64,000 nucleotides of DNA, taken from Roseiconus nitratireducens. GTDB lineage: Bacteria; Planctomycetota; Planctomycetia; Pirellulales; Pirellulaceae. Position numbers and translations under genes: made by a program. The stretch is taken from positions 558,001 through 622,000 of the forward strand of contig NZ_VWOX01000003.1 in NCBI RefSeq assembly GCF_008629675.1. The letters run 5' to 3'. Of the stretch, positions 6,560-51,641 are shown piece after piece. The notes beneath the pieces are model-generated. The model did not search any database, was not told the DNA's origin, and saw only the letters and a list, made by a program, of their open reading frames with translations. Numbering within the stretch: position 1 is the first letter of the stretch; each line of letters opens with the position of its first letter.

Positions 6560-6587
6560 TCAATCTTTTTGAGCAACTTTGGCTTTC

Positions 6588-6760
6588 CGCCGTCTGGCGA
6601 CGGCAGCTACGGCGACCCTTGAAAGTAGCCACGCTCGCCAGAGTGTGGTCTTCGCTGCGGCGCCGCCGTCTGGCGACGGCAGCTACGGCGACCTCTTGAA
6701 AGTAGCCACGCTCGCCAGCGCGTGGTATTCGCTGCAGCGCAACCGTCTGGCGACGACAGC
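6588..6760. repeat. REP-like palindrome array (five units, alternating orientation)
   Basis: Five units of the window's main palindrome family lie between aroC and the next gene: reverse-oriented units near 6588, 6663 and 6741, and forward units near 6626 and 6702. Each forward unit reads GTAG, then a stem around the loop GCCA (CCACGCTC-type stem). The reverse ones have the CCGTC/GACGG-type stem. The last copy is degraded and has lost GTAG. They alternate, giving inverted pairs (REPIN/BIME-like). Confidence 0.85.
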
Positions 6761-6785
6761 GACGCGGACCTCCTGATTCACGCGC

Positions 6786-22918: not shown

Positions 22919-23237
22919 TCGAATCAGGAGCTCCCGCGATGTTTGTGCATCGCGGTTGAATGGGTTGCGGCGTTCTGCGGCGACTCCTTCTCCGCTTCTT
23001 GCTTTGCCTTTTCTGGACGTCGATCAGGACTGCGGCTCAAGCGTCGGCAACGCCGTCGGGCAATTCAACGTCATTGTCTTCGTCCAAATCCTGTCGATCC
23101 AAGCCGAGCCTCCTTGCCCTAAAAAGCAACCCTCGAAAACGCGGGTCAAACGTATCCAATCCAGCATTGGAATAAAGGCTATCCCAATGCTCTCCGTCTG
23201 CTCGGCCCGCAACAGGTTTCACTTTCCAGCGGCTTTC

Positions 23238-23360
23238 CGCCGTCTGGCGACGGCGGCTACGAGGTCTGTGAGTGGCTTCCCGCCGTCTGGCGACGGCGGC
23301 TACTTGGGGATGCAGCTACGCTCGCCAGAGCGTGGCTCTCCGCTGTCGGGTGACGGTAAC
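23238..23360. repeat. REP-like palindrome array
   Basis: Two reverse-oriented units (CCGTC-TGGC-GACGG, then GGCTAC) start near 23239 and 23281. A forward unit near 23313 has stem ACGCTC/GAGCGT with GTAG degraded, and a weak copy follows near 23341. They fill most of the 479-bp gap between the amidohydrolase and the convergent gene at 23398; the rest of the gap holds no gene I can support. Confidence 0.8.
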
Positions 23361-31416: not shown

Positions 31417-31440
31417 AGCATCGGATCCGGCCCCCGAGTC

Positions 31441-31588
31441 CAGCGTCTGGCAGCGGTGGCTACGACGTGTTTTCGCTCTCCGTCGCCACGCTCGCCAGAG
31501 CGTGGAGAATGACGAATGCTCGCCACGACCCAATCGAAGCTAACGTGCTCCCCAGATTCACAGTCCACCGTCTGGCGACGGCGGCTAC
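31441..31588. repeat. REP-like palindromes, three units
   Basis: A degraded reverse unit (31441), a forward unit with intact stem CCACGCTC-GCCA-GAGCGTGG (31484-31505, GTAG changed to GTCG) and a reverse unit (31566-31588) lie between the AraC gene and a membrane protein. Confidence 0.8.
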
Positions 31589-46416: not shown

Positions 46417-46470
46417 GTCGCCCAACGACGGCAAGGTGTCACCTCCCACGCTCTGGCGAGCGTGGTTACC
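46417..46470. repeat. REP-like palindromes, inverted pair
   Basis: A degraded unit (GCCGTCGCCCAACGACGG) near 46414 and a reverse-oriented GCT-stem unit (CCACGCTC-TGGC-GAGCGTGG) at 46446-46465 followed by TTACC. Compared with other arrays the pair is flipped as a whole. It lies in the 414-bp gap between ispH and the radical SAM gene, which otherwise holds only the MITE-like repeat. Confidence 0.7.
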
Positions 46471-49889: not shown

Positions 49890-50037
49890 CCACCGTCTGG
49901 CGACGGTGGCTACAAGCTAATCCAGCCCTACGTGGCCACGCTCGCCAGAGCGTGGTCGATCTGAGCGCTCCACCGTCGGGCGACGGTGGCTACAACCTAA
50001 TCCAGCCCTCCGTAGCCCACGCTCGCCAGAGCGTGGG
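49890..50037. repeat. REP array upstream of RAYT
   Basis: Four units alternate in orientation: reverse CCGTC-type at 49890, forward GCTC-type at 49932 (GTAG changed to GTGG), reverse at 49969 and forward with intact GTAG at 50013. The stems are near perfect (CCACCGTC/GACGGTGG and CCACGCTC/GAGCGTGG) around loop GCCA or its complement. The array ends 33 bp before the transposase start. Confidence 0.9.
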
Positions 50038-50070
50038 AAGCGCGGGACAACCCGTTCATGGCGTTCACCG

Positions 50071-50643
50071 ATGAAACGGACGCATCTTCCGCGGCTGTGC
50101 CCTGAATCGTATCGCGGTCAGGTGTACATTCACTGGACGATGTCCATCGACGATCGACGCACCGGATGGCTTGTTCCGGCGTTCAAGGACAGATTCCGCG
50201 AACTGTTGACGCACGCCGCATTTCGGTACGCTTTCGTGTGTCCGGTTTACTGCCTGATGCCGGACCACATGCACCTGGTCTGGGCGGGAGTGAGTGCTCG
50301 AAGCGACCAATTGAAAGCATGCCGATACTTCCGCAAGCACGTCAATACGGTGCTCCGACGCCATGGCTACCGTTTCCAGCATCAAGCGCACGATCGGGTT
50401 CTCCGAGAGGACGAACGCGAAGAATCGGCATTCATCACCCTTGTCGAATACGTCGCCCGCAATCCCGAAAGGAAGGGCTTGGTGCCGCCTGATTGTTTTT
50501 CCGAGTACCGATACACCGGCTGCCTCATCCCCGGCCATCCCGAACTGGAGTTTGGTCAACCCGACTATTGGCTTCGATTTTGGCGTGCCTATTCGTTTCT
50601 GCAAAACAACGGACTGTTCGATCCGTTTGAGGAGTCGGTGTAA
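50071..50643 (+). CDS. REP-associated tyrosine transposase (RAYT, Y1/HUH family)
   Basis: 190 residues, the usual size. The HUH motif is in CLMPDHMHLVW (His66, His68), and the single catalytic tyrosine is in VEYVARNPERKGLV (Tyr127), both hallmarks of TnpA_REP/IS200-like Y1 nucleases. The N-terminal HWTMSIDDRRTGWLV and the C-terminal region FWRAYSFLQNN also fit. RAYTs are single-copy domesticated relatives of IS200/IS605 transposases that cut and join single-stranded REP hairpins next to a GTAG-type tetranucleotide. This gene is flanked on both sides by palindromes with GTAG at their foot, so those are its likely substrate. Confidence 0.9.
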   Translation: MKRTHLPRLCPESYRGQVYIHWTMSIDDRRTGWLVPAFKDRFRELLTHAAFRYAFVCPVYCLMPDHMHLVWAGVSARSDQLKACRYFRKHVNTVLRRHGYRFQHQAHDRVLREDEREESAFITLVEYVARNPERKGLVPPDCFSEYRYTGCLIPGHPELEFGQPDYWLRFWRAYSFLQNNGLFDPFEESV

Positions 50644-50650
50644 CAACCCG

Positions 50651-50932
50651 CCACCGTCTGGCGACGGTGGCGACGACTGTGCATTGGCGATCATAGCCAC
50701 TTTCGTCAGAGCGTGATCAATCGGACCGCTCCACCGTCTGGCGACGGTGGCTACAACCTAACGCTGCCCTCCGCCACTCCAGCGTCTGGCGACGTTGGCT
50801 ATAACCAAACACGGCACTCCGTCGCCACGCTCGCCAGAGCGTGGTCGATCTGAGCGCTCCACCGTCTGGCGACGGTGGCTACAACCTAATGCTGCCCTCC
50901 GCCGCTCCACCGTCTGGCGACGGTGGCTACAA
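50651..50932. repeat. REP array downstream of RAYT
   Basis: Six or seven units in 280 bp: reverse units at 50651, 50731, 50779 (partly degraded), 50869 and 50908, a forward unit at 50822-50844, and a decayed forward unit near 50695. Spacers such as TACAACCTAA-GCTGCCCTCCGCC repeat too, so parts of the array arose by local duplication. The array runs up to the leader of the ECF sigma gene that starts at 51000. Confidence 0.9.
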
Positions 50933-50999
50933 TGTGGCGTCCTACGCATTCCGCTCGCACATTGGGCTGCGCCAGAAAGTCGAGACCAAACTTCCCCCG

Positions 51000-51641
51000 A
51001 TGTCGGAAACCAACAACGTCAGCCACTGGCTTGATCGGGTCAAGCAAGGCGATTCGGTCGCTGCAAATCACATCTGGCAGCACTATTTCGACCGCTTGGT
51101 GCGGTCGGTTCGGCGGCGGCTGCAGGGTCAAAACCACGCGGTGTCGGACGAAGAAGACATCGTCCTGAGCGTTTTCGACAGTTTCTACGCTGCGGCGGAA
51201 AAAGGCCGATTCCCGGATCTATCGGATCGGGATGACCTGTGGCGACTGTTGCTGCGGATGTCCGCCAGAAAGGTGATCGACAAACACCGGCGTGATCGGC
51301 GGCAGCGCCGCGGTGGTGAGGTAAAAATCCATTCGCTCGGCGGTGACCACGAAACGATTATCGAAGCCATCGGGGACGAACCGTCGCCTGAGATGGTGCT
51401 GATGATGCAGGAATCGGTCGAAAATATTTTTTCTCATTTGGGTGTCGGGCAGCTACAGGATTTGGCGGTTGCCAAGTTGGAGGGGCACACCAACGCGGAA
51501 CTTGCCCTGCGTTTTAGTTGCTCGGAGCGGACGATCGAGCGTCGTCTGCACCTGATTCGAGAAAAATGTCAGCAAGAATTATTCGCAGATAATGAATGTT
51601 CGCCAGAAAAGACTTCCGATCGCGGCTCTGGAACGGATTGA
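51000..51641 (+). CDS. RNA polymerase ECF-type sigma factor (kinase-linked)
   Basis: 213 residues from ATG 51000; the upstream open frame to 50841 is translated REP sequence. Region 2: VKQGDSVAANHIWQHYFDRLVRSVRRRL, EEDIVLSVFDSFYAAAEKGRF and LWRLLLRMSARKVIDKHRRD. Region 4: LQDLAVAKLEGHTNAELALRFSCSERTIERRLHLIREKC. This is the type of planctomycete sigma factor encoded next to a Ser/Thr kinase. It overlaps the kinase start by 50 bp, so the two are co-translated and probably work together. The leader sits in REP hairpins. Confidence 0.92.
   Translation: MSETNNVSHWLDRVKQGDSVAANHIWQHYFDRLVRSVRRRLQGQNHAVSDEEDIVLSVFDSFYAAAEKGRFPDLSDRDDLWRLLLRMSARKVIDKHRRDRRQRRGGEVKIHSLGGDHETIIEAIGDEPSPEMVLMMQESVENIFSHLGVGQLQDLAVAKLEGHTNAELALRFSCSERTIERRLHLIREKCQQELFADNECSPEKTSDRGSGTD

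Follow-up and report, generated by a model that had tools for sequence, protein, structure and literature searches.

The window, a stretch of 64,000 nucleotides from a genome of 8.2 Mb in 108 contigs, holds a gene for a small Y1/HUH protein that is closely surrounded by short palindromes. The locus raises the question of whether protein and palindromes belong together as a RAYT and its REP substrate, and of how the gene is related to the many other copies of the same palindromes in the chromosome. Comparison indicates that the locus and the dispersed hairpins very probably constitute a REP/RAYT system (REPtron), in which the 190-aa protein would act on single-stranded DNA as a domesticated nuclease/transposase like TnpAREP; some 500 hairpins have probably been copied around the chromosome by this single RAYT gene.

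The RAYT gene and its hairpin array

The open reading frame called for the Y1/HUH protein is present on the plus strand and lies between a sulfatase gene upstream and genes for an ECF sigma factor and a protein kinase downstream. The initial annotation counted about ten palindromes within 40 bp upstream and 10 bp downstream of it, and this is close: the array has 11 hairpin units of about 24 nt, four upstream (49890–50037, the last ending 33 bp before the start codon) and seven downstream (50651–50930, the first beginning 7 bp past the stop). These were described as a single unit read in one direction. There are instead two types, unit A (CCACCGTC-GCCA-GACGGTGG), on the minus strand in 7/7 cases around the gene, and unit B (CCACGCTC-GCCA-GAGCGTGG), on the plus strand in 4/4. 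The proposal that every intact unit carries the foot GTAG is only partly correct, since GTAG is found in 6 of the 11 units (directly at the stem in five and with one extra base pair in the sixth) and three units with perfect stems have another foot; the remaining feet are GTGG (one unit), GTCG (two) and ATAG (two).

50071–50643, plus: RAYT (TnpAREP-like HUH/Y1 single-strand transposase), 190 aa, HUH motif H66-M67-H68, catalytic tyrosine Y127 in Y[IV]ARNPER
49890–49913, minus: REP unit A, foot GTAG, perfect stem
49932–49955, plus: REP unit B, foot GTGG, perfect stem
49970–49993, minus: REP unit A, foot GTAG, loop GCCC
50012–50037, plus: REP unit B, foot GTAG, stem lengthened by one pair to 9 bp
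50651–50674, minus: REP unit A, foot GTCG, perfect stem
50693–50716, plus: degenerate REP unit B, foot ATAG, 4 mismatches
50731–50754, minus: REP unit A, foot GTAG, perfect stem
50779–50802, minus: REP unit A, foot ATAG, 2 mismatches
50821–50844, plus: REP unit B, foot GTCG, perfect stem
50859–50882, minus: REP unit A, foot GTAG, perfect stem
50907–50930, minus: REP unit A, foot GTAG, perfect stem

As listed, the sigma-factor ORF (50841–51641) begins within the array, and its first residues (PPSGDGGY repeats) would be REP-encoded; its true start is probably further in. A precise empty site, with a sulfatase gene adjoining the sigma-kinase pair, was not found at nine relatives' loci read to about 1.5 kb past the match, and the full sigma gene is missing at several of these.

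Over the whole window there are 17 GTAG-plus-hairpin sites, and none of 10 first-order Markov controls has more than one; matches to the REP core with up to three mismatches number 22, and five such controls have none. Thirteen of the 17 sites belong to the family of the RAYT array and four (15757, 29314, 60275 and 60316) to another REP family, which consists of GTAG, a 7-bp stem and a TGT loop and has 60 copies with up to three mismatches in this genome. The TGT-loop REP flanks a different RAYT, L007 (G000:C53:630524-630973), which is close to E. coli TnpAREP (180.6 bits), and a tandem array at G000:C53:501762-502337 is built from the two REP families in alternation, repeating about every 120 bp. 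The only Rfam match of the array in the window is Acido-Lenti-1, at 21.1 bits (50907–50943) and 16 bits; both scores are below the gathering threshold of 37, and a search of 20 RAYT loci gave no Acido-Lenti-1 match at E <= 1, so we reject the identification of the array as that RNA. Some published "RNA" motifs of the Acido-Lenti-1 sort might be REPs.

The initial annotation's assignment of the protein to the RAYTs is upheld by a family match, a structural match and a tree. An NCBIfam search (E <= 1) returned REP_Tyr_transpos (NF047646) as the sole match, at 41.9 bits with a cut-off of 80, and the Pfam match, Y1_Tnp at 18.6 bits, is also below its cut-off of 23; these scores lower the case for membership in the core RAYT family as modelled. 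All 27 aligned relatives match both models, with best E values of 0.00038 (Y1_Tnp) and 3.9e-12 (REP_Tyr_transpos). Searched singly against the PDB the protein gave a best E of 0.6, which we read as chance, and nothing below E 0.066 was found in PHROGs. A profile of 67 sequences has E. coli TnpAREP (4er8) as its best PDB match (5.8e-6, 132 positions, about 29 bits), followed at about 0.3 by the transposases 2xm3, 2xo6 and 2xma, which we take to be ISDra2 TnpA. In a tree of 35 proteins, with some long branches among the rows outside the clade, the 18 clade members form one side of a 100/99 branch, and E. coli TnpAREP groups with L007 and one RAYT of genome G028 (95/94). Judged by these comparisons the 190-aa protein is a RAYT of a separate clade.

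Residues H66, H68 and Y127 are invariant in 27/27 and 67/67 aligned sequences, relatives with stop codons having been left out of both alignments. (In the clade RAYTs L027 and L031 a stop codon falls at a C-terminal tryptophan position.) In the alignment to 4er8, residues Q103, D108 and R112 correspond to positions 95, 100 and 104 of E. coli TnpAREP, which are named among its GTAG contacts (PMC8266576). Q occupies position 95 in all 67 sequences; position 100 has D in 65 of them and E in the other 2, while at position 104 R (44 sequences) and K (13) predominate. The position of W94, a residue described as conserved in REP-associated subclasses (PMC6006769), is W in only 4 of the 67, L in 33 and F in 28.

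Among the best 80 of 143 relatives, with hosts named from record titles that in many cases are those of metagenome bins, the clade is found mostly in Planctomycetota, then in Verrucomicrobiota and Kiritimatiellota, and in one host labelled Armatimonadetes. A match at E <= 0.001 is present in 58 of the 149 genomes of the family sample, with 1 to 7 matches per matching relative; both figures include weak matches to other RAYTs.

The host genome has one clade match, so the clade RAYT is single-copy there. The inverted hairpins on both sides of a Y1 gene do resemble the IS200/IS605 layout, and one could suppose that gene and array move together as an ordinary insertion sequence. We find this hardly credible, given one gene copy against about 500 dispersed hairpins, several arrayed units on each side, and the tyrosine signature of the clade, Y[IV]ARNPER. 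This is of the form Y-x-x-NP, which places the protein on the RAYT side rather than with the IS200 transposases, whose signature is Y..NQ (Table 1 of PMC6006769). Membership in IS200/IS605 was rejected also because a self-mobile, multi-copy transposase gene is expected of it and this one is single-copy.

Correspondence between hairpin and RAYT

To examine the foot, 81 loci (the window and the best 80 of 143 clade relatives) were searched for 8-bp hairpins in up to 400 bp of flank, with each of the 256 tetranucleotides tried as the foot. GTAG, the tetranucleotide named by the initial annotation, emerges from this unbiased scan with 297 hairpins at 64 of the 81 loci, and the next best foot reaches 6 loci. 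No GTAG hairpin lies within 400 bp at the other 17 clade loci, of which 5 are planctomycete (2 of them clipped by a contig end) and 12 mostly verrucomicrobial.

Hairpin and RAYT sequences vary together, with a Mantel r of 0.27 that is uncorrected for host descent and was equalled in 0 of 2000 permutations. The mean stem distance is 0.6 of 8 in the closest RAYT pairs and 4.4 in the most distant, the rise between them not being strict, and the nearest RAYT has a closer-than-median REP at 56 of the 64 loci. Because the Mantel test carries no correction for host descent, genomes with two RAYTs serve as a control. The 80 loci include eight such pairs by record name, of which six were run and five have hairpins at both genes; at the sixth and at the two omitted pairs hairpins are missing at one gene. 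In 5/5 of these genomes the outcome was the same, all 10 genes having REPs nearer to the REP of the closest foreign RAYT than to that of the housemate.

Close homologues of the protein (59–65% identity) in six other genomes are likewise flanked by such hairpins, whose stems include CCACCGTC, CTACCGTC and CTACCTTC, and clade RAYTs with a different REP also exist, for example the CGGAAGTC type. Copy number follows the same line: 7/7 genomes with a RAYT of at least 59% identity have 38–225 copies (the host genome 216, G061 38, G077 90, G078 212, G148 145, G082 225, G108 42), and at least 20 copies are present in 7/142 others (G028 330, G023 114, G083 71, G013 67, G038 37, G044 31, G047 20; Fisher 1e-8, with the cut-offs of 59% identity and 20 copies set after the data were seen). 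G083 and G013 have clade RAYTs at 50–54% identity, with other stems in the flank of one gene of each, and G073 and G097, whose RAYTs (58% and 57%) have other stems in their flanks, contain 0 copies of the A/B REP. Within the genus, where 7 of 14 genomes were sampled, the host genome and G148 (63% RAYT) carry the REP and five others have 0, 0, 0, 0 and 1 copies.

The initial annotation expected the palindromes to be scarcer in close relatives without a RAYT of the clade; the association across genomes agrees with this. It named equal abundance there as a refutation, and one genome, G028 with 330 copies, shows just that. Its larger claim, that of a complete REP/RAYT system with its own REP, is supported as regards the system by the RAYT, the GTAG foot, the covariation and the copy-number association, and is not supported as regards a private REP, the same hairpin being found in several genera.

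The REPs might have been spread by another HUH protein of the genome, the RAYT at 50071 being a passenger in the array. There are candidates, in that NF047646 has 12 matches in the genome at E <= 10, namely this RAYT and 11 others; moreover G028 has the REP and no clade RAYT, and in G044 an A-type unit with 2 mismatches lies near 2230 of L178 (G044:C4:38229-41537), at most 0.5 kb from a RAYT-like gene that belongs to a different clade. This explanation is nonetheless very improbable in our view, because no A/B unit (up to 4 mismatches) occurs within about 1.5 kb of the 11 other RAYT-like matches of the host genome, 13 of the 19 RAYT-like matches in G028 were read with their surroundings and have no such REP within about 1.5 kb, and the close homologues in six genomes have the same kind of hairpin at their flanks. 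Two of the RAYT-like genes of G028 have hairpins of their own, L181 with foot GTGG and GCGGGTC/GGCGGTC stems and L194 with foot GTAG and a CCTGACTC stem.

Dispersed units, the folding strand and REPs without a cognate RAYT

The dispersal of the motif beyond the array is confirmed genome-wide, with 216 A-type and 296 B-type units at up to three mismatches (38 and 70 of them exact) and 0 and 1 in reversed-pattern controls. In the window, the further units placed by the initial annotation at 6588, 23238 and 31441 prove to be small groups; near the one given at 46417 only a single B unit, whose foot is GTAA, was found.

6587–6763, units on both strands: dispersed REP group A- B+ A- B+ A-, directly 3' of a presumed chorismate synthase gene (aroC, named by eye)
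23237–23335, units on both strands: dispersed REP group A- A- B+
31440–31588, units on both strands: dispersed REP group A- B+ A-
46446–46469, minus: single REP unit B, foot GTAA, perfect stem

No GTAG hairpin was found within 450 bp downstream of aroC in 12/12 same-genus genomes where aroC was found. The gene next after aroC was also not found in these 12 relatives, so that this is a case of lineage-specific REP occupancy and not of precise insertion. A different palindromic repeat (around GTAAGCTTCCAGCTTGCG) lies downstream of aroC at L259, L261 and L262, in three same-genus genomes, and its core is absent from the window.

A sample of 462 kb of the host genome (20 fetched stretches, several of them picked at listed units, and the window) contains 100 units, of which 75 have the foot GTAG and 90 the loop GCCA; the commonest sequence accounts for 21/61 A units and 18/39 B units. 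One of the 100 lies inside a predicted gene, at a coding fraction of 0.79 (simple gene caller), as do 4 of 98 units in G028, and in the 10 bases on each side beyond the 24 nt no base is conserved above 0.62 (A) or 0.65 (B). The A/B units thus have the properties by which REPs are recognized, being short, palindromic, extragenic, high in copy number and GTAG-tagged. In the samples read, neighbors on opposite strands are always A with B (43/43 in the host genome and 34/34 in G028) and neighbors on the same strand are always alike (21/21 and 24/24), so the A/B code is clean and uniform also in a genome without a cognate RAYT.

Folding as two hairpins was considered as the cause of this A/B rule and rejected, as it fits the host genome (two hairpins in 29/32 real doublets vs. 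0/32 homotypic controls) and fails in G028 (separate hairpins in 3/23 real doublets vs. 0/23 controls), where GTAGCTAC is itself palindromic. Heterotypy does weaken the long palindrome, the real A/B doublet being about 15–17 kcal/mol weaker than the homotypic control in both genomes; the idea is already present in PMC3733652.

Several asymmetries identify the strand that folds. The 108 distinct stems at RAYT loci have 42 G.T and 2 A.C pairs on the GTAG strand, and bulk copies have 93 and 4 in the G028 sample and 37 and 11 in the 100 units of the host sample, where the bias is weaker and many copies are degenerate. Loops are of the form G..A in 149 of 168 units, and at 60 of 64 loci most units have such a loop. 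When 143 distinct units were folded with DNA parameters, the GTAG strand was the more stable in 131, equal in 9 and less stable in 3. In tandem gaps the strand with G.T pairs is RNA-like in 10 cases and template in 7 in the host genome, and 30 and 20 in G028; the wobbles are thus independent of the sense of transcription, which fits single-stranded DNA better than RNA. G.T pairing had been noted earlier and taken as a hint of RNA function (PMC3733652). In our data the G.T wobbles and G..A loops are pointing to recognition of single-stranded DNA, and in the REPs of S. maltophilia the first loop base, G, is essential, its change having abolished cutting (PMC8266576). Strand-specific C-to-T damage of the exposed GTAG strand could add to the wobble bias, and whether or not it contributes, the GTAG strand is the folding strand. 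From sequence alone, the asymmetry of G.T pairs and G..A loops speaks for selection on the folded GTAG strand of DNA and not on an RNA.

The placement of the units lends itself to another reading, in which the palindromes are host elements (terminators, mRNA stabilizers, or nucleoid or gyrase sites) under selection and the HUH gene is incidental. The units are extragenic and favor the 3' ends of genes: the 36 unit groups of the host sample lie in 22 tandem, 13 convergent and 1 divergent gaps (by unit 52, 42 and 6 of 100), divergent gaps being 27% of intergenic bases, and a uniform population exists in G028 without the RAYT. We nevertheless hold this reading to be improbable, because the G.T pairs keep to the GTAG strand both where it is the template and where it is RNA-like, the hairpins differ in sequence according to the RAYT and not the host, and no such REP lies within about 1.5 kb of the 11 other RAYT-like matches of the host genome.

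Under the REP/RAYT reading, and by analogy with the TnpAREP proteins of E. coli and S. maltophilia, the substrate would be a GTAG-tagged hairpin that only the GTAG strand forms, with the foot followed by the first arm of an 8-bp stem, a tetraloop of the form G..A and the returning arm. Single-stranded DNA beside the folded REP would be cut by the HUH site together with Y127, and through cut-and-join reactions single REP units, or inverted A/B doublets, would be copied into further extragenic sites.

REP populations without a cognate RAYT bear on how far the two depend on each other. G028, of the same family and another genus, is one contig of 8,212,515 bases rated 100% complete. In a 400-kb sample of it (stretches partly picked at listed units) the master sequence accounts for 45/50 A and 40/48 B units, so that its REPs are more uniform than those of the RAYT-bearing host genome (21/61 and 18/39). 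No clade RAYT was found in it by protein or profile search, which gave one weak profile match at 23.7 bits. That a RAYT is hidden between its REPs was rejected, since ORFs in nine inter-REP gaps (350–1500 bp, in the fetched stretches) gave no match to the clade profile. G023, G038, G044 and G047 likewise lack a clade RAYT and have 20 to 114 REP copies. The six units in 180 kb of G023 are all different and one has a GTAG foot, and 23 of its 114 copies are within one mismatch of the query, against 97/216 in the host genome; its population looks more decayed, not dead. In G148 the RAYT L022 (G148:C1:5558022-5558576, minus strand) has TAG exactly at the catalytic tyrosine codon and 145 REP copies remain; four sampled A units have a common changed, still paired stem, and 9/9 units in 160 kb are GTAG-footed.

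The cases of G028, G023, G148 and G044 indicate that a REP population can remain once its RAYT has been lost or broken; REPs left behind by a lost RAYT are known from E. coli strains (PMC3733652). REPs can thus outlive the RAYT in some genomes, which speaks against strict dependence. It is a rather unlikely but conceivable extension that after RAYT-driven spread the REP population becomes a host-maintained chromosomal element, kept uniform by other means than its own RAYT; candidates would be gene conversion, selection acting on how doublets fold, or another HUH protein. If this were true, RAYT and REP would be separable parts of a domesticated system. G148 (stop at the tyrosine), G028 (uniform) and G023 (more decayed) are the test cases for REP persistence without a RAYT.

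Comparison with known systems

A REP/RAYT system in a planctomycete, as the initial annotation proposed, is not a first. PMC3733652 reported GTAG repeats in Planctomycetes in 2013, and in Rhodopirellula baltica "a plethora" of genes for tyrosine transposases that have repeats at their flanks, so the kind as described there was already known in the group. What appears to be new is this RAYT clade, the rules of its REP and the population without a RAYT, the families of PMC3733652 being compared by text only. The signature Y[IV]ARNPER is not among the key motifs in Table 1 of PMC6006769, and our literature search, made on text, listed no paper that we recognized as describing the clade. For work on REPs and RAYTs it provides a large natural data set from outside Proteobacteria, in which a single clade found across PVC bacteria is paired with dozens of distinct cognate hairpins, so that specificity residues could be read from covariation.

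The R. baltica and Opitutus terrae families described in the text of PMC3733652 resemble the present one in having short GTAG palindromes in the PVC superphylum, tyrosine transposases flanked by repeats, several REP families per genome, heterodimers, and a location mostly in tandem and convergent gene gaps. The A/B orientation lock, the G..A loop and the tracking of the RAYT across genera were not met in the text compared. The Class 3 TnpAY1 proteins of Planctomycetes (PMC6006769) are also planctomycete HUH proteins flanked by hairpins; the Y motif given for them ends in EQ and their foot is CnGA, in contrast to NP and GTAG here, and on both grounds we reject identity with that class.

E. coli TnpAREP (Group 2, 2.2; 4er8) is the nearest solved relative, and in the alignment Q103, D108 and R112 fall on its Q95, residue 100 and R104. 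The similarity amounts to only about 29 bits, W94 is mostly missing in the clade, and the E. coli REPs are described as long and bulged (PMC8266576), although the dimorphic Y and Z units of E. coli BIMEs (PMC2817692) are a parallel to units A and B. The S. maltophilia Group 3 (2.5) REPtron (REPSm and TnpASm; PMC8266576) has the more similar hairpin, a short perfect palindrome with GTAG, an 8-bp stem and a tiny loop that begins with G. That loop is 3 nt long, whereas it is mostly a 4-nt G..A loop here; the TnpASm signature is YI[VI]ANP (Table 1 of PMC6006769) rather than Y[IV]ARNPER, and the W that precedes Q in TnpASm is mostly L or F in the planctomycete clade.
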